Source of the DNA: a virus
IMG/VR virus record: IMGVR_UViG_3300031857_001520
Coordinates: 1-22,391 of that record
Length of the DNA: 22,391 bases
Direction: 5' to 3' (one strand)
In this document: positions 6,741 through 22,391 of the stretch, one piece after another
Numbering within the stretch: position 1 is the stretch's first letter
Layout of the letters: every line of letters starts with the position of its first letter
The notes under the pieces: model-generated
Seen by the model: only the letters and a program-made list of their open reading frames with translations
Database searches by the model: none
Told to the model about the DNA's origin: nothing
Program-made: the position numbers and the translations under genes

Positions 6741-9665
6741 ATGACAATATCTTCAACTACAGTTAAGAACAGTTATAGTGGTGATGGCTCAACTACCACG
6801 TTTACATATACATTTAAGATATTCCAAGACTCAGATATTCAAGTAATCATTCGTGCTGCTAATGGTACAGAAACCATTAAGACTATTACAACTCATTATA
6901 CAGTTACAGGTGCTGGTGTATCTACAGGTGGTACAGTTGTATTTACATCTGGTAACATTCCAACCTCAACACAAACAGTTGTATTAAGACGTAACATTCC
7001 ACAAACACAAGCAATAGATTATATTGCTAACGATCCATTCCCTGCTGAATCCCATGAAGAAGGATTAGACAGAGCAACAATGGCAATTCAACAATTGCAA
7101 GAAGAAGTAACAAGATCTTTAAAATTATCTAAAACAAATACAATGACATCTACAGAGTTTACTGTGGGTGCTACTGCTCGTGCTAATAAGATTTTAGCAT
7201 TTGATACTAATGGAGAAATATCAGTTACTCAAGAACTTGGAACTAATAGAGGTTCATGGAGTTCTGGTGTTACTTTTAATGCTAGGGATATTGTAAAAGA
7301 TTCATCTAACAATAACGTATATCTTTGTAACACAACTCACACATCTACAGGTTCTACTCCTATCAGTTCTAATACTGATGTAGCTAAATGGGATTTAATT
7401 GTTGATGCACAATCTGCAACTAACAGTGCAAACGCAGCTGCAAATCACGCATCCAACTCTTCAAACTTTGCTAACAATTCATCTAATAGTGCTAACGCTT
7501 CAGCAAACCATGCTAGTAACTCATCTAATTTCGCAAACAATAGTTCTAATAGTGCATCTAATGCTGCTAACTCTGAAGCAAGTGTAAGTGCTAATGCTAA
7601 CGCATCTGCAAACTCTGCAGCAAACTCATCTAACTTTGCAAACAATTCTAGCAACAGTGCAAACTCTGCATCTAATCATTCTGCTAATAGTTCTAACTTT
7701 GCTAACAACAGTTCTAATCACGCATCTAACAGTTCTAATTTTGCAAACAATTCTAGTAACTCTGCAAATGCGTCATCTAATCATGCAAGTAATTCATCTA
7801 ATCATTCAGCGAATAGTTCTAACTTTGCAAACAACAGTTCTAATTCAGCTAATGATGCAAGTAACCATGCTTCAAACAGTTCTAATCATGCGTCTAATAG
7901 TTCTAACCATGCTGCGAACTCTAGCAACTTTGCTAACAACTCTAGCAATCATGCTTCAAATTCTAGTAACTTTGCTAACAACTCAAGCAACTTTGCAAAC
8001 ACTGCTTCTGATGCAGCCAATGCAGCTAATGCCGCAAGAGATACAGCAATAACATTGGTAGATAATTTTGAAGATGTTTACTTAGGTTCAAAAACAGATG
8101 ATCCTACAGTAGATAATGATGGTGATGCTTTAACAGCAGGAGATTTATATTACAATTCAGTAGGTAATGTTTTAAAATATTATACAGGTTCTGCTTGGGT
8201 AGCAATTACATCAGGTGGTATTACAGATTTAGTACAAGACACAACGCCACAACTTGGTGGTATGTTAGATGTCAATGGACAATCTATTGGTGATGGTACA
8301 TTAGAATTAGTTAAATTTGCAGAAACAGCAAGTGCTGTTAATGAAATTACAGTAACAAATTCTGCTACTGGTAATGCACCAGAAATATCAGCTACTGGAG
8401 ATGATACAAATATTGATCTTAAACTTACTCCAAAGGGTACTGGTAAATTAAATTTAGATGGAATTAAATTCCCTAATGCTGATGGTACAGCAAATCAAGT
8501 ATTAAAAACTGATGGTTCAGGTAACTTATCATTTACAACATTAACATCAGATGGAACTGCTGATTGGGACACAACTGTTAAAACAACAGGATTTACTGCT
8601 ACTGCTAATAAAGGATATTTTTGTAATACTACTTCTGCAGGATTTACAGTAACATTACCCGCAACTCCAAGTGCTGGAGATGAAATTATACTTTTAGATT
8701 ACGCAGGAACTTTTGATACCTTTGCTTTAACTATTAATCCTAATGGTGGTAAAATAGAAGGTGGAACATCTAACCTAAAATTATCTGGTGAAAGAGAAGG
8801 AGTAAGATTAGTTTATATAGATTCAACACAAGGTTGGTTAGCTTATTCAGGAATTAATGAAGGAACAGATGCCTTAGCACCAATAACTTATTCAGTAGAT
8901 TTTTTAGTAGTAGCTGGAGGAGGTGGTGGTGGTAGAGGTGATGGAGGAGGAGGCGGTGCTGGAGGATATAGAACATCAACTCAAACAGTATCACCAGGAA
9001 CAGTAATTACAGTAACAGTAGGAGATGGTGGTGCAGGAAGAGCAAGTACAAATGGTCAAGGTACTTCTGGTACAGACTCATCTATTTCAGGCACAGGTTT
9101 ATCAACGATAACTTCTGCTGGAGGTGGAGGCGGTGGAGGTGTTTCAGTAGGTTTAAATGGTGGTTCTGGAGGAGGTGGTTCTGGTGCTAATGCAGGAGGA
9201 AATGGAAACACACCAAGTACTTCACCAAGTCAAGGAAATAATGGAGGATCTGGATTTTCTGGTAATGCTGGTGGTGGTGGTGGTGGAGCTAGTGCTGTTG
9301 GTGAAAGTTCACCTTCCCAAGTTGGTGGTGCAGGAGGAGCTGGAACAGCTTCTTCAATTACAGGTTCTTCAGTTACAAGAGCAGGAGGTGGTGGAGGTAG
9401 AGGTGATAATGTAAATGGTGCTGGTGGAGCAGGAGGTGGTGGAGCTGCTGCTGCAGGAGATGCAACAGCAGGAACAGTAAATACTGGAGGAGGTGGAGGT
9501 GGAACAGCTAGTGGTACAGGTGGTGCTGGAGGAAAAGGAGTTGTTATATTAAGTATGCCAGATGGAGATTATTCAACAACTACAACTGGATCTCCAACTG
9601 TTGCTACAGGAGTTTCAGGAAAAACAGTTTTAACATTTAATGGTTCAGGGAGTTACACAACATAA
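6741..9665 (+). CDS. Tail fibre protein with T7-type N terminus and glycine-rich tip
   Basis: 974 residues with a clear ribosome site (AAAGGAAC, about 5 bp before ATG). Residues 1 to ~125 ('NSYSGDGSTTTFTYTFKIF', 'VVLRRNIPQTQAIDYI', 'DPFPAESHEEGLDRATMAIQQL') match the conserved N-terminal domain of T7-type tail fibres that docks to the tail. Residues ~229-424 are 28 near-perfect 7-residue repeats made of Ser, Asn, Ala, His and Phe. Residues ~425-720 hold beta-rich segments typical of fibre shafts ('YLGSKTDDPTVDNDGDAL', 'DLKLTPKGTGKLNLDGI'). From ~721 to ~935 the protein becomes a series of poly-glycine runs, as in glycine-rich adhesin tips such as phage S16 gp38. Likely role: host receptor binding. 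The stop overlaps the next ATG by 1 bp. Confidence 0.85.
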   Translation: MTISSTTVKNSYSGDGSTTTFTYTFKIFQDSDIQVIIRAANGTETIKTITTHYTVTGAGVSTGGTVVFTSGNIPTSTQTVVLRRNIPQTQAIDYIANDPFPAESHEEGLDRATMAIQQLQEEVTRSLKLSKTNTMTSTEFTVGATARANKILAFDTNGEISVTQELGTNRGSWSSGVTFNARDIVKDSSNNNVYLCNTTHTSTGSTPISSNTDVAKWDLIVDAQSATNSANAAANHASNSSNFANNSSNSANASANHASNSSNFANNSSNSASNAANSEASVSANANASANSAANSSNFANNSSNSANSASNHSANSSNFANNSSNHASNSSNFANNSSNSANASSNHASNSSNHSANSSNFANNSSNSANDASNHASNSSNHASNSSNHAANSSNFANNSSNHASNSSNFANNSSNFANTASDAANAANAARDTAITLVDNFEDVYLGSKTDDPTVDNDGDALTAGDLYYNSVGNVLKYYTGSAWVAITSGGITDLVQDTTPQLGGMLDVNGQSIGDGTLELVKFAETASAVNEITVTNSATGNAPEISATGDDTNIDLKLTPKGTGKLNLDGIKFPNADGTANQVLKTDGSGNLSFTTLTSDGTADWDTTVKTTGFTATANKGYFCNTTSAGFTVTLPATPSAGDEIILLDYAGTFDTFALTINPNGGKIEGGTSNLKLSGEREGVRLVYIDSTQGWLAYSGINEGTDALAPITYSVDFLVVAGGGGGGRGDGGGGGAGGYRTSTQTVSPGTVITVTVGDGGAGRASTNGQGTSGTDSSISGTGLSTITSAGGGGGGGVSVGLNGGSGGGGSGANAGGNGNTPSTSPSQGNNGGSGFSGNAGGGGGGASAVGESSPSQVGGAGGAGTASSITGSSVTRAGGGGGRGDNVNGAGGAGGGGAAAAGDATAGTVNTGGGGGGTASGTGGAGGKGVVILSMPDGDYSTTTTGSPTVATGVSGKTVLTFNGSGSYTT
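7425..8012 (+). repeat. 28 tandem 7-codon repeats in the tail fibre gene
   Basis: Residues 229-424 of the fibre split cleanly into 28 heptads such as HASNSSN, FANNSSN, SANASAN and HSANSSN. Position 1 is H, F or S, and positions 6-7 are nearly always SN. The repeats differ at the DNA level by synonymous changes (AGT/TCT/TCA for Ser; AAT/AAC for Asn), so the protein pattern is better conserved than the DNA. The strongly skewed content also produces long open frames in the other reading frames here; these are not genes. Confidence 0.85.
8905..9540 (+). repeat. Glycine-rich low-complexity coding region (fibre tip)
   Basis: Codons GGA/GGT/GGC dominate, giving repeated G(4-7) runs separated by short Ala/Ser/Thr/Asn spacers, for example AGGGGGGRG, GGGGGGASA and GGAGGKG. 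About 210 residues are affected. The region is markedly less AT-rich than its surroundings because of Gly codons. Confidence 0.8.
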
Positions 9666-10060
9666 TGGCTAGTTTTGCAAAAATAGGATTAAATGGAAAA
9701 GTGATTGAAGTTCAATCAGTAGTTAATGAAGTTCTTCATGACTCTAATGGAGTTGAACAAGAAGCTATTGGTATAGATTTTTTAACAAAATTAACTGGTT
9801 ATCCTTTGTGGGTTCAAACATCTTATAATACAATTGGTGGAATACATAATAACAATGGAACACCTTTAAGAAAAAATCATGCAGGAATAGGTTATACTTA
9901 TGATGAAGATAGAGATGCTTTTATACCTAAAAAACCTTTTAACTCTTGGGTATTAAATGAACAAACTTGTTTATGGGAATCTCCAATACCTTATCCACAG
10001 GATAATAATAAATATAATTGGAACGAACAAAATCAATCTTGGGATATATTAGAAGTATAG
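9665..10060 (+). CDS. Conserved marine-phage protein following the tail fibre
   Basis: 131 residues, translated from a TAATG overlap with the fibre gene. The protein contains 'NHAGIGYTYDEDRDAFIPK', 'PFNSWVLNEQTCLWESPIPYP' and a C-terminal 'YNWNEQNQSW'. I recognise this combination (AGIGYTYDEDRDAFIPPKPFPSW...CLWE.P) from conserved hypothetical proteins of marine cyanophages and pelagiphages; it has no established function that I know. Being translationally coupled to the fibre suggests a virion-associated or fibre-accessory role, which is inference. A perfect DnaA-box sequence occurs inside the gene at 9991-9999 but also simply encodes Tyr-Pro-Gln. Confidence 0.65.
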   Translation: MASFAKIGLNGKVIEVQSVVNEVLHDSNGVEQEAIGIDFLTKLTGYPLWVQTSYNTIGGIHNNNGTPLRKNHAGIGYTYDEDRDAFIPKKPFNSWVLNEQTCLWESPIPYPQDNNKYNWNEQNQSWDILEV

Positions 10061-10086: not shown

Positions 10087-10695
10087 TTGTCAGAAGTAAT
10101 AAAAATTCACGAACCTAAATTTGAAAATTCATCTTGGAATTTTCAATTAGATAAAATTGAATTTTACGCATTTTGGAATAACGCATTTTCAAAAGAAGAA
10201 TGTCAAACAATCATTAACATAGCTAAAGATAAAGGTTTAATTAAAGGAAAGACTAAAGGAGGAAATACAAAAGATGTTAGAGATTCTAAAATATCTTGGT
10301 TATATCCAGTTGATGGTATGGATTGGGTATTTCGTAGAGTAACTGACATTACACTAAATCTTAATGAAAGGTTTTTTAAATTTGATTTGTTTGGAATTAA
10401 TGAAGGATTTCAGTTTACAAATTATGAAGCACCCTCTGGTAAATATGGTAAACATGTTGATAGAGGAATAAATATAGCAGTTAGAAAATTATCTATATCT
10501 ATTCAACTTACAAATCCTGAAGAATATGAAGGTGGAGAACTTTATTTATATGAAGATGATAAAGGAACTCTTATGGATAAAACACAAGGAACATTAATTA
10601 TGTTTCCTTCTTATGTATTACATGAAGTTATGCCAGTAACTAAAGGGGAAAGAAATTCTTTAGTAACTTGGGTAACTGGTAAACAATTTAAATGA
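10087..10695 (+). CDS. 2-oxoglutarate/Fe(II)-dependent oxygenase (prolyl-4-hydroxylase-like)
   Basis: 202 residues from a TTG start at 10087, chosen because a strong AAAGGAAGGAA ribosome site precedes it and no ATG lies nearby. The double-stranded beta-helix iron and cosubstrate ligands are visible: H123-V-D125, distal H179 in 'YVLHEVMPV', and R189 in 'KGERNSLVTW' for 2-oxoglutarate. The core 'LSISIQLTNPEEYEGGELYLY' lies between them. This pattern is that of P4H/PKHD-type hydroxylases, widespread in marine phages. The substrate is unknown; a virion or host protein residue is possible. The stop overlaps the next gene as ATGA. Confidence 0.88.
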   Translation: MSEVIKIHEPKFENSSWNFQLDKIEFYAFWNNAFSKEECQTIINIAKDKGLIKGKTKGGNTKDVRDSKISWLYPVDGMDWVFRRVTDITLNLNERFFKFDLFGINEGFQFTNYEAPSGKYGKHVDRGINIAVRKLSISIQLTNPEEYEGGELYLYEDDKGTLMDKTQGTLIMFPSYVLHEVMPVTKGERNSLVTWVTGKQFK

Positions 10696-12266: not shown

Positions 12267-12295
12267 TAAGGGTGGTTTAATAGCCACCCTTATTT
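12267..12295 (+). terminator. Rho-independent terminator
   Basis: A perfect 9-bp stem TAAGGGTGG / CCACCCTTA with an 8-base loop (TTTAATAG), followed by TTTACTT. GC-rich for this genome and placed 10 bp after the acidic protein gene. It isolates the fibre/GT transcript from the lysis region. Confidence 0.8.
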
Positions 12296-12297
12296 AC

Positions 12298-12318
12298 TTA
12301 TCCACATTTTAGTATAAC
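12298..12318 (+). promoter_or_regulatory. Perfect DnaA box (12298-12306) next to a -10-like TATAAC
   Basis: TTATCCACA at 12298-12306 equals the bacterial consensus DnaA box. TATAAC at 12313-12318 follows after 6 bp and lies 8 bp before ATG 12327, which has no ribosome site, so a transcript from here would be nearly leaderless. No good -35 is seen. The box is certain as a sequence; its binding is inference. Confidence 0.5.
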
Positions 12319-12326
12319 TAATCATA

Positions 12327-12545
12327 ATGAAATTTTTATTAGTCTTTACTGTTTGCTCAATGGTTAATGGTAATTGCTTAGACACCATGAGTACAGGTAA
12401 GAAGTTTGATACCTTTAGGGAATGCACCATAGCTGGCTATGGGTTTATAGCAGAACAGAATAAGCTATTCCCATTAGATCAGTTTGAGAAAGTCAAACCA
12501 TCCTTTCATTTTGATTGCATAGAAACCAAAGAGCAATCCACATAA
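12327..12545 (+). CDS. Small Cys-containing protein, possibly exported
   Basis: 72 residues. The first ~15 residues (MKFLLVFTVCSMVNG) look like a short signal peptide or membrane anchor. The rest is hydrophilic with four further-spaced cysteines (C17, C33, C63 region) that could form disulfides in the periplasm. A similar layout (short hydrophobic start, paired Cys) is seen in the minus-strand protein at 18233-18445. Function unknown; its place beside the lysis genes suggests an envelope role. Confidence 0.6.
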   Translation: MKFLLVFTVCSMVNGNCLDTMSTGKKFDTFRECTIAGYGFIAEQNKLFPLDQFEKVKPSFHFDCIETKEQST

Positions 12546-12558
12546 TTACAATCTTTAA

Positions 12559-12586
12559 TTGACTTTTTATCCACAACCACTATAGG
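12559..12586 (+). promoter_or_regulatory. Promoter with a perfect DnaA box in its spacer
   Basis: TTGACT (12559-12564), 16-bp spacer, TATAGG (12581-12586). A second perfect DnaA box, TTATCCACA, fills 12567-12575 in the spacer. A bound DnaA-type domain would block polymerase here. A partial third copy (CAATCCACA) lies at 12533-12541. Confidence 0.5.
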
Positions 12587-12590
12587 TGGT
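12576..12590 (+). promoter_or_regulatory. Inverted repeat overlapping the ribosome site of the 12593 gene
   Basis: ACCAC-TATAG-GTGGT lies 2 bp before ATG 12593 and includes the only ribosome-site-like sequence (AGGTGG). In RNA it could hide the site; in DNA it could be an operator. Only 5 bp of stem. Confidence 0.35.
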
Positions 12591-12592
12591 GT

Positions 12593-12820
12593 ATGAAAAG
12601 AAAGAAGCAACCTATATCTGCTACTGCTATAAGATTATCATCTTATGAGAAGTATTCATCAGAACGTATGGATATGATCATAAAACGATTAGATGATCTT
12701 ACAGTGGAAGTCAAAGATCTTAGAACTGATATGAGCATGGGTAAAGGTGTCATAGCATTTCTAGTAATCATTGGCAGCATAGCAGGTTCAGTCATAGGTT
12801 TCTTTCAATTCAAAAACTAA
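12593..12820 (+). CDS. Holin-like or XhlA-like small membrane protein
   Basis: 75 residues. A hydrophilic helical N-terminal half, including 'SSERMDMIIKRLDDLTVEVKDLRTDM' (a coiled-coil-like stretch), is followed by one membrane span at ~52-71 (GVIAFLVIIGSIAGSVIGFF) and a 2-4 residue tail. The coiled coil plus C-terminal span is the plan of XhlA-type haemolysin/holin-partner proteins. It lies ~320 bp upstream of the lysozyme gene, which supports a lysis role. Confidence 0.6.
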   Translation: MKRKKQPISATAIRLSSYEKYSSERMDMIIKRLDDLTVEVKDLRTDMSMGKGVIAFLVIIGSIAGSVIGFFQFKN

Positions 12821-13144: not shown

Positions 13145-13573
13145 ATGTACGAAGATTTAAAATCAAGGATTAAACGACACGAAGGCTTTCTAAGTAAAGT
13201 TTACCTGGATATATTAGGTAAAGCTACCATTGGCTATGGTCATTTGCTTACAGAAGAAGATGATTTTGTTGAAGGCGTTATCTATGACAAGGATATACTT
13301 GAAGCATTGTTTGAGAAAGACTTTAACAAAGCTGTTCAGGGTGCAGAAGAATTATTAAAAGGTTATGATGTGGCTCTTGTTGCTAAAGAAGTAATCATTG
13401 AGATGGTATTTCAATTAGGAAAGACTGGGGTTTCTAAGTTTAAGAAAATGTTTGAAGCATTGAAAGAACATGATTATAGTAGAGCAGCTGCAGAGATGTT
13501 AAACTCAGCGTGGTATAGACAAACACCAAGCAGATGCGAAGAGTTGTCAAACATAATGAAGAGCTGTCATTAA
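13145..13573 (+). CDS. Endolysin, T4-type lysozyme (GH24)
   Basis: 142 residues, 1 base after the nuclease stop. The catalytic triad E13 (KRHEGF), D22 (YLDILG) and T28 (ATIGYGHLL) has the same spacing as T4 lysozyme E11-D20-T26. The later 'AWYRQTPSRCEELSNIM' corresponds to the C-terminal lobe. Muramidase cleaving peptidoglycan between MurNAc and GlcNAc. No signal peptide or anchor at the N terminus, so release should depend on a holin. Confidence 0.92.
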   Translation: MYEDLKSRIKRHEGFLSKVYLDILGKATIGYGHLLTEEDDFVEGVIYDKDILEALFEKDFNKAVQGAEELLKGYDVALVAKEVIIEMVFQLGKTGVSKFKKMFEALKEHDYSRAAAEMLNSAWYRQTPSRCEELSNIMKSCH

Positions 13574-15986: not shown

Positions 15987-16490
15987 CTATTTTACAGTTT
16001 TCATAACATAATCATATCTATTCCAGATAACATGATCTGGCTGCCAGAAATGTTCCTTATTCATTTTCATTCTAACATGATGGATCATTGTAGTGTGATC
16101 ACGATTACCTAAGATAACTCCAATCTTTGTAAATGGCATAGAGTATTTATCTCTAAGCACATTAATTAATATGGATCGTGCAATCACTGCAGCTTGTATT
16201 CTAGTCTTTGCAATAATATCATTTACATTTACACCTAACTGATTGGCAACGATTGCTAATATCTCTTTAACATTCTCAGGTACAACCACATCATTGATCG
16301 TTACATACTTAACAACTTCTTTAACTACTGTTTGTTTGTATCTGTAATTGTTTCTAAAAAATTGTCGTGCCAATTTATATCCAGTTCTAAATCCTGTACG
16401 ATAAATCTTTCTTTCTCTGTCATCTAAGTTAGCGAAACTATTAAATGAATATCTTAGTTTGATTTCTTTCTTAAACTCTTTTGGTGTCAT
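15987..16490 (-). CDS. DnaA domain IV (DnaA-box-binding) protein lacking the ATPase domain
   Basis: 167 residues with an AAAGGGGAT ribosome site. Residues ~1-75 are basic with a Tyr/Arg-rich helix (ERKIYRTGFRTGYKLARQFF). Residues ~75-160 match DnaA domain IV: 'VKEILAIVANQLGVNVNDII' then 'QAAVIARSILINVLRDKY' then 'MPFTKIGVILGNRDHTTMIHH', with the signature R130-D-H-T-T134 that reads the DnaA box. There is no AAA+ Walker motif; full DnaA is about 450 residues. It may occupy DnaA boxes as a replication or transcription regulator, either for the phage (boxes at 12298 and 12567) or against the host origin. It lies at the distal end of the minus-strand block. Confidence 0.9.
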   Translation of the reverse strand: MTPKEFKKEIKLRYSFNSFANLDDRERKIYRTGFRTGYKLARQFFRNNYRYKQTVVKEVVKYVTINDVVVPENVKEILAIVANQLGVNVNDIIAKTRIQAAVIARSILINVLRDKYSMPFTKIGVILGNRDHTTMIHHVRMKMNKEHFWQPDHVIWNRYDYVMKTVK

Positions 16491-17624: not shown

Positions 17625-18224
17625 CTATACCTCATTTTGAGTTGTGATCTCATCACGCTTACTATTAAATTTATTTAAAATAGAATCGTAAGTGGATTGA
17701 TCTTTTATTTTTATTTGATTTAGAAGATCTTTATTAGCACGCCACAGAAAATCTAATTTAGCTGTATGCGGTGCGTAATGTACCTTCTTCATCAATTCAT
17801 TAATTACACCATCATCAACATTTGTTGATGTAGTGCCTTTGCCATTCATAGGTTGTACTGGAATATCTAATTCCTCATACTCTTCCTTAGATGTCATATC
17901 TTCAAGAAGAATACCCATGATTGATAAAGCTCGTGTGATTGCAAATGTTTCAGCTATCTCAAGATAACCTGGTTTATCTCTAAACTGTTTAGAGTAACCT
18001 GTTGCTATAATATGTTCTGGATCGCATTTAGTTATAATACATTTCATTATAATATAACGATCAGAATGTTCTTGTATTACACAGTTGATACCAAACTCAG
18101 TACCAAATACTTCTCTAAAGTATTTAATTTTTGACCAGGCTGATACTGTTTTCTTACCATGTTGATTTATGTATGTGCCATTGGATGCACACAAATCATT
18201 CACTTGTTTTATTTTTTCTTTCAT
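17625..18224 (-). CDS. Putative phage ssDNA-annealing/recombination protein
   Basis: 199 residues. 'WSKIKYFREVFGTEFGINCVI', then beta strands ('YIIMKCIIT'), 'ATGYSKQFRDKPGYLEIAET' and 'FAITRALSIMGI'. The 'E.AET.AI.RAL...GI' helix after a short beta-sheet is shared by phage proteins annotated as ERF/Sak-like or RecT-like annealing proteins. The C-terminal ~70 residues are helical and charged. Lying in one block with a PD-(D/E)XK exonuclease, it would form a lambda-Red-like pair that anneals exonuclease-made single strands. The family assignment is tentative. Confidence 0.55.
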   Translation of the reverse strand: MKEKIKQVNDLCASNGTYINQHGKKTVSAWSKIKYFREVFGTEFGINCVIQEHSDRYIIMKCIITKCDPEHIIATGYSKQFRDKPGYLEIAETFAITRALSIMGILLEDMTSKEEYEELDIPVQPMNGKGTTSTNVDDGVINELMKKVHYAPHTAKLDFLWRANKDLLNQIKIKDQSTYDSILNKFNSKRDEITTQNEV

Positions 18225-18445: not shown

Positions 18446-18627
18446 TTTGATATTATGTAAATTATAAGAACAAATATTATTAAAATTAAAACTACTTTAA
18501 TAAACATATTTCTAAACTCCCTATCTTCCCTTTGTTTTAATTTACGCATTATATTATCATGCCTAAATTGTTGTCTAATCTTTTCGTGTTGCTTCTGATA
18601 ATAATTTATATCCATAATTCTACACAT
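18442..18627 (-). CDS. Small membrane protein, C-terminal single span
   Basis: 61 residues. A charged N-terminal helix rich in Gln, Lys and Arg (QKQHEKIRQQFRHDNIMRKL) and one span at ~41-60 (MFIKVVLILIIFVLIIYIIS). Tail-anchored topology with a cytoplasmic basic domain. It overlaps the exonuclease gene by 8 bp; M5 at 18615 is an alternative start. Function unknown. Confidence 0.55.
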   Translation of the reverse strand: MCRIMDINYYQKQHEKIRQQFRHDNIMRKLKQREDREFRNMFIKVVLILIIFVLIIYIISK

Positions 18628-19591
18628 TATCCCACAATGAAGCTGCTAATCTAACGTGTTCATCAGCTATAGTCTTCCACATAAAACCAGAAAAATCTGG
18701 TGGCGGAACTAACTTAGCCATGTCGTAAGGATTACCTTTTGTAATATAAACTAAGTTCTGTCTAATCTTAGCTGTAATTAAATCTTGCTGCACTAAGAAC
18801 TCCATGTACTCAGGTGTAAGCAATTCACAAGTGTCAGGAGTAAACACATTGTAGCTGTCTTGGTTTACATAAAGTAAATGAGGAGTTTTCTTTGTAGCGT
18901 ACCAATAGAAAGCACATTGTTTAACATGGTTGATGTCAGGTTGTTTAGGTAGATAACCTTTGATCCAAGAGTAACCTTGTTTAGTATCTGACTTTCTTTT
19001 GCTTCTATGTTTTGTTTTTAACTCCACTAACTTAGGTTTAGTACCACTCACAGAAGTATCCATCTGTTCGTAATCTATTCTACCAATTTTATCTAAAACT
19101 AATTCTTTAAATTTATAAGTGCAGTATCTTTCACTTGCAACCTCATCTCCTAATTTTAAGTCAGCTATTGCTTTACAAGTCAATTTAATCATGTCTGCAA
19201 GATAATTTTTTGTATCTTCTTTTTGTATTTTATCTTCTTCATCTGCCACGACATACTTATCATACTCAATTAATTCTTCTTTGATGATAGTATCTAAATC
19301 TTTTTTTTCATTTAGAATTTTTTTCTCAGCTTCATACATATACTTAGAAATATATTTTTGTGATGCTCTACCAATACTTACGCCAGCACTCATTCTGTAA
19401 GAACCTTGTAAAGCTCTCCTCTGTTCTTGTGTAAAAAAACAATATCTGACGATCCAATCACTTGTTGTTAATTGATCTTGAGATGGCGAACTGTGGTCCA
19501 AACCAAGTGCCTGATAATATTTAATACAAATATCAGGATCAAAATTATTTAGTGCCGAGATACTATTATTCTTTGTTAAATCAATAACCAT
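18620..19591 (-). CDS. PD-(D/E)XK exonuclease (RecB/Cas4-like)
   Basis: 323 residues with a GAAAGG ribosome site. N-terminal 'LTTSDWIVRYCFFTQEQRRALQG' and 'SAGVSIGRASQKYIS', a helical middle, then the nuclease core: 'VLDKIGRIDYEQ' with D173 and 'KLVELKTKHR' with E190-L-K192, followed by 'QGYSWIKGYLPKQPDINHVK' and 'QCAFYWYATKK', the C-terminal QxxxY-like helix of RecB-family nucleases. Expected role: resection of phage dsDNA ends for recombination with the annealing protein downstream. It is the promoter-proximal gene of the minus-strand block. Confidence 0.78.
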   Translation of the reverse strand: MVIDLTKNNSISALNNFDPDICIKYYQALGLDHSSPSQDQLTTSDWIVRYCFFTQEQRRALQGSYRMSAGVSIGRASQKYISKYMYEAEKKILNEKKDLDTIIKEELIEYDKYVVADEEDKIQKEDTKNYLADMIKLTCKAIADLKLGDEVASERYCTYKFKELVLDKIGRIDYEQMDTSVSGTKPKLVELKTKHRSKRKSDTKQGYSWIKGYLPKQPDINHVKQCAFYWYATKKTPHLLYVNQDSYNVFTPDTCELLTPEYMEFLVQQDLITAKIRQNLVYITKGNPYDMAKLVPPPDFSGFMWKTIADEHVRLAASLWDNV

Positions 19592-21058: not shown

Positions 21059-21826
21059 ATGCCAAAAAAAAAATATTTTACAGAAGAAGAAAAACAACAA
21101 GCAAAAAAAATATATAGAGAAAGAGATAATTTAAAAAAAAGATTAAGATATAAATTAGATAAAAAGTTTAGAGAAAAAGAAAAAAAAAGAACTAAATTAT
21201 ACCACCACAATAATCCTCACATTGCATTAAAAATTAGAATCAATAAAAAAAATAAAATGAAAACAGATTTAAAATACAGAAATCATACTTTGCAAGTTAG
21301 AAAAAAATATTTAATAAAAAATAAAAAATTAATCAAAGAGCAAAAAAGATTATATTTTTTAAAAAACAAAAAAAAATTATACCAAAAAAATAAAGAATGG
21401 AAAAATAAAAATAAAATTAAATTTAGTTTATGGAGAAAAAGTTATGAAAAATTACCACATGTTAGAAGTTCTACAAATGAAAGAATTAGAAAAAGAATGA
21501 AGACAGATCCTATTTTTAGATTAAGAAAAAATTTAAGATTAAGATTGTATGAATATATTAAATATAACAGGGGAAAAAAATATGGATCAATGCAAGAACT
21601 TCTTGGATGTGATTGGATTAAATTTAAAAAACATATTGAAAGTAAGTTTGTTAAAAATATGAGTTGGAATAATTATGGAGATTGGCATATTGATCACATA
21701 ATACCAATATCTAAATTCAATTTACTAGTAAAATCTGAACAATTTAAAGCATGTAATTATAAAAATCTCCAACCTTTGTGGAGAATGGATAATATTTTAA
21801 AATCAGATAAAATTATTAATAACTAA
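21059..21826 (+). CDS. HNH homing-type endonuclease
   Basis: 255 residues. The first ~150 residues are an extremely Lys/Arg-rich helical region (nearly all AAA and AGA codons), likely DNA-binding. The C terminus has the HNH core: H210-I-D212-H213-I-I-P in 'DWHIDHIIPISKF', then 'ACNYKNLQPLWRMDNILKSD' with the Asn/His-position residues. The pattern D-H-I-I-P...NLQPLW...N..K is typical of free-standing phage HNH endonucleases. It is even more AT-rich than its neighbours and sits between two unrelated genes, ending in a TAATGG overlap, consistent with a mobile insertion. Confidence 0.85.
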   Translation: MPKKKYFTEEEKQQAKKIYRERDNLKKRLRYKLDKKFREKEKKRTKLYHHNNPHIALKIRINKKNKMKTDLKYRNHTLQVRKKYLIKNKKLIKEQKRLYFLKNKKKLYQKNKEWKNKNKIKFSLWRKSYEKLPHVRSSTNERIRKRMKTDPIFRLRKNLRLRLYEYIKYNRGKKYGSMQELLGCDWIKFKKHIESKFVKNMSWNNYGDWHIDHIIPISKFNLLVKSEQFKACNYKNLQPLWRMDNILKSDKIINN

Positions 21827-22233
21827 TGGCTAGATATAATTATTTCGTAGGTGGATTTGGAGATTACTATTCCGAGTGGCATAGAAATAAATGTTCTGAT
21901 ATTGCTTACATAGATATAGATAGTGTACCTATCTGTATTAATAAACCTTGTTGGCAGCCATTAGCAGTCATTGAAACTGTATATGATACTGGTAAGAACT
22001 ATAATAAATATACTACTGTTGTAGAATACATAGCTAAAGGCTTAAATATACCTTGTTTTTTGCTATACTATAAACCTATACCAAGCACAGACAGCCTAGA
22101 GTTCAAAGTTAAGCGTCTATACCCCTTTAAAACTGATTTAAACCCTATCTTAGAGGAAGAATGGTACTATGAAATGCTTAAATTACAGATTGAGCATGAT
22201 AAGGTATGTAAATACAAGGTAAATCGTGGCTAA
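21826..22233 (+). CDS. Unknown protein with nuclease-like fold hints
   Basis: 135 residues, starting on a 1-bp overlap. 'EWHRNKCSDIAYIDIDSVPI', then 'QPLAVIETVYDTGKNYNKYT' and 'EYIAKGLNIPCFLLYYKPI'. Asp residues on one strand (IDID), a Glu on the next (VIET), a Lys-containing helix and a following buried strand resemble a restriction-endonuclease-like fold, but the canonical (D/E)xK is not clean. The C terminus is charged and helical. Confidence 0.55.
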   Translation: MARYNYFVGGFGDYYSEWHRNKCSDIAYIDIDSVPICINKPCWQPLAVIETVYDTGKNYNKYTTVVEYIAKGLNIPCFLLYYKPIPSTDSLEFKVKRLYPFKTDLNPILEEEWYYEMLKLQIEHDKVCKYKVNRG

Positions 22234-22391
22234 TAAATCGCATATAAGATTGAATGTAAGTCTATTTAATCACGACTTATTTCTCTCACTGCCAAGCAAA
22301 AGGAAAGGCGATTGCTTATCTATATTGATTGTATTGCTAAGATTTACTAACTTTAGATCTGGTTTATGCTACCCTAGGTATTCTAAGATTA
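22226..22391 (+). CDS. Start of a further early gene, truncated by the window end
   Basis: The frame is open from GTG 22226 to the last base (55 codons). GTG is preceded by AAGG 6 bp upstream and overlaps the previous gene by 8 bp, as is usual here. MANKSHIRLNVSLFNHDLFL, then SLPSKRKGDCLSILIVLLRF. The LP-x-K-x-KG...L..LL.RF pattern resembles winged-helix N-termini of replication-initiation proteins, but too little is present to say. Confidence 0.5.
   Translation, partial: MANKSHIRLNVSLFNHDLFLSLPSKRKGDCLSILIVLLRFTNFRSGLCYPRYSKI

Follow-up and report, generated by a model that had tools for sequence, protein, structure and literature searches.

The stretch of DNA analyzed in this study, hereafter the window, is a 22,391-base virus record from IMG/VR that belongs to an HTVC010P-type pelagiphage. 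Judging from the length of isolates, it covers most of a phage of ~35 kb, and the word "genome" refers below to that portion. Over aligned stretches, the window is 73-76% identical to the Pelagibacter phages Skadi, HTVC203P, HTVC204P and Lederberg, and its gene order is that of the isolates: tail tube B, an acetyltransferase, internal virion proteins, the tail fibre, the lysis side, and an operon on the opposite strand. This operon starts with a nuclease-like gene (18620..19591, minus strand; PHROG 1706 and synteny), continues with a single-strand-annealing-protein-like gene (17625..18224, minus strand; synteny with HTVC034P gp16, PHROG 11717) and small genes, and ends with the gene for a DnaA-like protein (15987..16490, minus strand). 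The host of the phage is a bacterium of the SAR11 type. Relatives with 71-100% protein identity are treated here as the window's clade. Lytic HTVC010P-related phages that infect freshwater SAR11 (Fonsibacter) were described by Chen et al. 2019 (PMC6811365), who listed 'DnaA' among the proteins common to all those phage genomes. The window's clade presumably corresponds to such phages, and we have named it the freshwater clade after them.

Other features of the window can be mentioned briefly. A 2OG-Fe(II) oxygenase gene with an apparent TTG start is found at 10087-10695 (PF13640, 1.2e-14). In the tail-fibre gene (6741-9665), long repeats of the NHASNSSNFANNSSN type produce long spurious ORFs in other frames, and the C-terminal domain is rich in glycine (PF21722). 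Searches with PADLOC and Rfam gave no match.

The DnaA-like gene encodes 167 amino acids. The first-pass annotation had described its product as a DnaA domain IV with an RDHTT signature and without the AAA+ ATPase domain, and each of these traits was recovered here. The Pfam profile Bac_DnaA_C (PF08299) matches residues 75-140 (16071..16268, minus strand) over profile positions 2-67 of 69, with an E value of 4e-15 and 56 bits (cut-off, 31.5 bits). The ORF also matches PHROG 27829, 'DnaA-like replication initiation protein', and its sequence matches in the PDB are exclusively DnaA proteins, over residues ~73-151. The RDHTT motif occupies residues 130-134. The AAA+ domain (domain III), sought in the Pfam, PDB sequence and TIGR00362 comparisons, is absent, as the DnaA profile TIGR00362 is matched only from position 324 to 414 of 437, which is its last quarter, and far under the cut-off. 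Domain I is absent as well, as judged from the structure model and TIGR00362: the N-terminus consists of two helices in ~48 residues (residues 3-48; 16347..16484, minus strand) with no match to AAA+ or DnaA. With both domains tested and absent, the phage protein is not DnaA.

The residues through which DnaA contacts its box are nonetheless in place. R97, R105, D131, H132, T133 and T134 are the equivalents of E. coli R399, R407, D433, H434, T435 and T436, and all six are invariant in 12 of 12 diverse relatives; across 41 relatives the only exception is a lysine instead of R399 in three. According to a review (PMC5742627), R399 reads the TTA part of the box in the minor groove, the helix formed by residues 434-451 reads TnCACA, and box binding is impaired in the mutants R399A and T435M. 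A structure model built from the 41 relatives has a mean pLDDT of 79.9, with 86-95 per block in the domain and low values in a linker (residues 51-66). Its best solved match is 1j1v, which shows DnaA domain IV bound to box DNA; the rmsd is 1.9 Å and the TM score, referred to the target, is 0.81. All six of the contact residues tested are kept. Fold and DNA-contact residues are thus common to the phage protein and bacterial domain IV. Unlike bacterial DnaA, however, the phage protein lacks domains I-III and has ends of its own: the two-helix N-terminus, in which Y30, F34 and G37 are invariant or nearly so in the phage family, and a C-terminal stretch, K142..W149..W156, that extends past the Pfam domain. 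A scan of bacterial genomes matched the domain IV part, mostly over residues ~73-140, and no full-length relative was found among the matches listed; a standalone cellular relative was discarded on those grounds. From these comparisons, the phage protein probably reads DNA in the manner of DnaA domain IV.

The existence of a DnaA-like protein in these phages was already known, as it is common to HTVC010P-type pelagiphages and constitutes a core protein. We found the homologue in 19 isolate records, at 28-35% identity and annotated as 'DNA replication initiation (DnaA)', 'DnaA-like', 'Bac_DnaA_C' or hypothetical. As far as the literature that we searched shows, the initiator role in these annotations appears to derive from domain similarity alone. 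The HTVC010P-type proteins (HTVC010P gp46, HTVC034P gp20, Greip gp42 and Skadi, of the proposed Ubiqueviridae) are 26-35% identical to that of the window over the full length. The homology includes both ends, the invariant residues are shared, and the gene is likewise the last of the nuclease - annealing protein operon and faces the late cluster. One difference is found beside the recognition helix: the freshwater clade has GNRDHTT, whereas the marine HTVC010P-type proteins have GQDHTT preceded by a gap and are one residue shorter.

Three perfect TTATCCACA boxes are present in the window, at 9991, 12298 and 12567, all on the plus strand. Their excess over chance, which the first-pass annotation had estimated by hand, held against shuffled controls run on the window: the mean expected count is 0.33, and none of 100 shuffles reached three or more. 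No enrichment in the window was detected for the relaxed box TTWTNCACA (4 vs 4.5 expected) or for boxes with one mismatch (9 vs 8.4 expected). The box at 9991..9999 lies inside ORF 9665-10060 and is probably incidental coding sequence. The other two are intergenic, each upstream of a small gene, at 29 and 26 nt from its start codon and 5-6 nt before a TATA-like hexamer, and they recur in relatives in the promoter-like leaders of the same two small late genes. In all 14 contigs of sufficient length with either site, the DnaA-like protein is also encoded.

Site 1 (12298..12306) precedes the ATG of a small gene (12327..12545, plus strand; PHROG 19893, function unknown) by 29 nt and a -10-like TATAAC by 6 nt. 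Of the 17 distinct leaders compared in the clade, 16 share an identical box in spite of variable flanks; the box is the most constant stretch of its leader and lies outside any stable hairpin. Directly before it, at 12268-12297, is a terminator-like hairpin (GGGTGG..CCACCC) that relatives keep with changed arms.

Site 2 (12567..12575) is more complex. The perfect box is located between the two halves of a promoter-like element, TTGACT - 16 nt - TATAGG (12559..12586, plus strand), which was read from the sequences and falls below the cut-offs of the consensus scan. The same box doubles as the 5' arm of a hairpin (12563..12600) that covers a Shine-Dalgarno-like GGTGG and the ATG of ORF 12593, with arms matched across variants. 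The box is common in relatives, yet it is substituted in a sizeable fraction of variants, and TTGACT and TATA are retained even in variants without it, with a spacing of 16-17 nt in most. Folding is better than in shuffled sequences (p ≤ 0.05) in 15 of 17 site 2 variants, whether or not they have a box. When the 5' and 3' halves were exchanged among variants, native combinations folded better than permuted ones (-10.9 vs -9.9 kcal/mol, p 0.005; p 0.009 with one variant per 5' arm). Column-wise covariation of the hairpin in a MAFFT alignment was not significant, probably as a consequence of arms that pair in different registers.

The site 2 box is, therefore, at least partly a hairpin arm, and its conservation alone is no proof of DnaA-type binding; as independent evidence of such binding, this box is weakened by the hairpin. 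One hint of a second constraint is that in most box variants a C within the box creates a mismatch in the hairpin; an A or G at that position, which is rare, gives full pairing. A more radical view is that the boxes are by-products throughout, site 2 being the arm of a start-codon hairpin, the 9991 box coding sequence, and site 1 and the marine sites described below promoter sequence that matches by chance. Retention of the hairpin, of TTGACT and of TATA in box-less variants is what such an origin predicts, and the swap test agrees with it. It does not account well, however, for site 1, nor for the marine box form, which persists in different contexts and is about equally far from the start codon in each, and we consider it unlikely.

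The gene downstream of site 2 (12593..12820, plus strand; PHROG 37133, unknown) encodes a small protein with a hydrophobic stretch at its C-terminus and is two genes upstream of the lysozyme (endolysin) gene (13145..13573, plus strand; PF00959), so that its product may possibly be a holin or a lysis accessory protein. The arrangement resembles that of T4 gene e, the lysozyme gene. There, a hairpin in the long early transcripts sequesters the gene's start, and the sequence of its 5' strand contains late promoters (PMC3014915). As in gene e, the gene at site 2 belongs to a lysis neighbourhood and has its Shine-Dalgarno and AUG covered by the hairpin, and promoter-like elements lie in the 5' part and loop of that hairpin. 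Unlike in gene e, the promoter looks like a sigma70 promoter and not a T4 late one, and the gene is not lysozyme itself. By analogy, site 2 can be viewed as a candidate switch of the gene e type. A free-standing Endonuclease-VII/HNH-like endonuclease gene is found elsewhere in the window (21059-21826; PHROG 1035), and in one relative (L009) an apparently similar gene is inserted between the genes that follow sites 1 and 2.

Enrichment of boxes across the genome is not a trait of the family. Across the 349 kb of ten marine isolates there is a single perfect box, against 4.3-5.2 expected, and TTATNCACA occurs 15 times, against 25-30 expected; a near-complete relative of 40 kb (G004) has no perfect box. 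In distant relatives TTATNCACA seemed to be in excess, but this was dismissed, as it corresponds mostly to coding sequence of the DnaA-like gene itself (NIIHN codons). Box-reading residues that are conserved family-wide despite few boxes in most phage genomes raise the possibility that the target is in the host: the protein might occupy boxes in the host chromosome, at oriC or in the dnaA promoter, block host initiation and free the replisome for the phage. The absence of the parts required for DNA opening fits this idea, which the first-pass annotation had also entertained. Conserved boxes do exist in phage leaders, however, and such a take-over function seems an unlikely explanation to us.

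In the freshwater clade, the perfect boxes are found at the two late genes described above; the box of marine relatives is found instead at the leader of the structural cluster. Five of the ten isolates have TTATMCACA in the long noncoding leader that precedes the structural cluster, whose first gene is the small one before terL. When the set of leaders was widened with IMG/VR contigs recovered through other segments of the same leader, TTWTNCACA was found at positions -75..-35 in 20 of 42 non-redundant marine leaders, compared with 1.8 expected and a maximum of 6 in 500 simulations; under stricter redundancy the figures are 8 of 18, 0.5 expected and a maximum of 3. Since marine leaders share descent, these counts are not fully independent, and the figures overstate independence. 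The marine boxes are mostly in the orientation of the gene and 46-58 nt before the ATG, mostly 56-58 nt, as opposed to 26-29 nt in the freshwater clade, and their form is kept in two different sequence contexts. In the freshwater clade, the structural-cluster leader has the one-mismatch form ATATCCACA or less. Gene order suggests that this leader is a start of late transcription.

The leader before the small pre-terL gene also contains a strongly conserved noncoding block (isolates L082-L091 and L315-L485; also L009, L013 and L095). The block includes a CCCC-rich stretch as well as TATATATACATGGGACT..GAGGACWCCCTTA; a further part, CTAGATRTAGTATATG, is located at the start codon and resembles the start element of site 2.

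It is also conceivable that host DnaA is the reader of the boxes, which would make them sensors of the host replication state for late genes, while the phage protein would have another DNA target. The sites do fit the general TTATNCACA consensus (PMC5742627). On the other hand, boxes and phage protein co-occur in the same phages, albeit as clade-level synteny only, and two control pelagiphages not reported to have the protein contain one and zero perfect boxes. We regard this explanation as improbable.

A separate candidate for replication initiation was detected at the end of the window, where the contig end cuts off a gene (22226..22391, plus strand) identified through complete relatives. 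The complete relative in L009 matches DnaD-like helicase loader, replication initiation and O-like families (PHROG 186, 270 and 391; 5.5e-10 to 2.1e-7). In isolates, the gene at this position is annotated as 'putative transcriptional regulator'. The window's copy being truncated, iterons were seen in the copies of relatives. Near the middle of most complete O/DnaD-like genes, a unit of 21-22 bp is repeated in tandem 2.4-3.9 times. These repeats fall into seven sequence classes, and their TRF scores, 61-129, compare with a maximum of 62 in 200 shuffled genes. Iterons were not found in five copies (L009, L025, L030, L073 and L109). Copies with iterons include those of L094 (G004; 17988-18066), L049, L013, L069 and L083 (HTVC034P gp09).

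In phage lambda, iterons inside the O gene form ori. The relatives' gene is similar in that up to four iterons near its middle are followed by AT-rich sequence; it differs in its C-terminal part and iteron sequences, and in being accompanied by a DnaA-like gene located apart. The analogy makes the iterons a lambda-like origin candidate of HTVC010P-type phages, and the main reason for calling the DnaA-like protein an initiator therefore falls away. A phage oriC made of the boxes was also discarded: they are unclustered, and the iterons are elsewhere. The origin function proposed in the first-pass annotation thus lost ground, on account of the dispersed boxes, the lack of perfect ones in G004 and the separate O/DnaD-like gene.

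A role in replication can still be envisaged, in which the DnaA-like protein binds the phage origin, alone or together with host DnaA, and recruits the host replisome. Isolates carry the annotation 'DNA replication initiation (DnaA)', the gene closes the nuclease - annealing protein operon, the family has no DNA polymerase (PMC10504331), and in one relative (G008) a perfect box adjoins the O-gene iterons, which suggests a possible accessory function. AAA+ and domain I are, however, missing, boxes do not cluster, an O/DnaD-like initiator with iterons is present elsewhere, and most iteron sets have no adjoining box. Altogether, a replication protein seems rather unlikely, if less so than host take-over or by-product boxes. 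None of these explanations and the one that follows are mutually exclusive.

Boxes in late-gene leaders, together with a separate candidate for the phage origin, lead us to favor a gene switch over a replication starter. Among the roles suggested in the first-pass annotation, that of transcription regulator has gained from the conserved boxes in late-gene leaders of both clades. We propose, with somewhat less than even confidence, that the DnaA-like protein is a box-reading regulator of late genes more than an initiator. Made from the replication/recombination operon, it would be a sequence-specific DNA binder composed of the box-reading domain IV and phage-specific ends, and would most likely bind DnaA-box-like sites without opening DNA. 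Regulation would take place at late-gene leaders: that of the first structural-cluster gene in marine relatives and, in the freshwater clade, those of genes 12327 and 12593 in the vicinity of the lysozyme gene. Replication would start elsewhere, at the iterons inside the O/DnaD-like gene. At sites 1 and 2 the protein would sit between -35 and -10, which would fit repression, while activation would fit the marine box, which is further upstream. What the sequences and the model show directly are the domain with its residues and fold, the boxes with their positions and conservation, and the iterons; DNA binding, regulation, its direction and its timing are inferred. The complete scheme, with operators at the structural-cluster leader in marine phages or at lysis-side promoters in the freshwater clade and replication through the O-like protein and its iterons, is more tentative than the regulatory role itself and less likely than not. 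Several observations go against a regulator: host DnaA would read the same sites; marine isolates show no box excess and G004 has no perfect box; site 2 is explained, partly at least, by the hairpin and promoter; and the clades differ both near the recognition helix (marine QDHTT) and in the distance from box to start codon.

What is new here are the leader boxes in relatives, the site 2 hairpin, the marine TTWTNCACA leaders and the separate O/DnaD-like initiator with iterons. HTVC010P-type phages rank among the most abundant pelagiphages known and are thought to depend on host RNA and DNA polymerases (PMC10504331), hence the interest of how their late genes are timed and their replication is started. 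The regulator hypothesis provides a concrete alternative to the initiator annotation, with named DNA sites as predicted targets (TTATCCACA/TTATACACA), and a separate origin candidate is offered; testing either idea would take one small protein and a handful of short DNA fragments. If the hypothesis is true, a very abundant phage family would have turned the box-reading domain of DnaA into a dedicated regulator of late genes.
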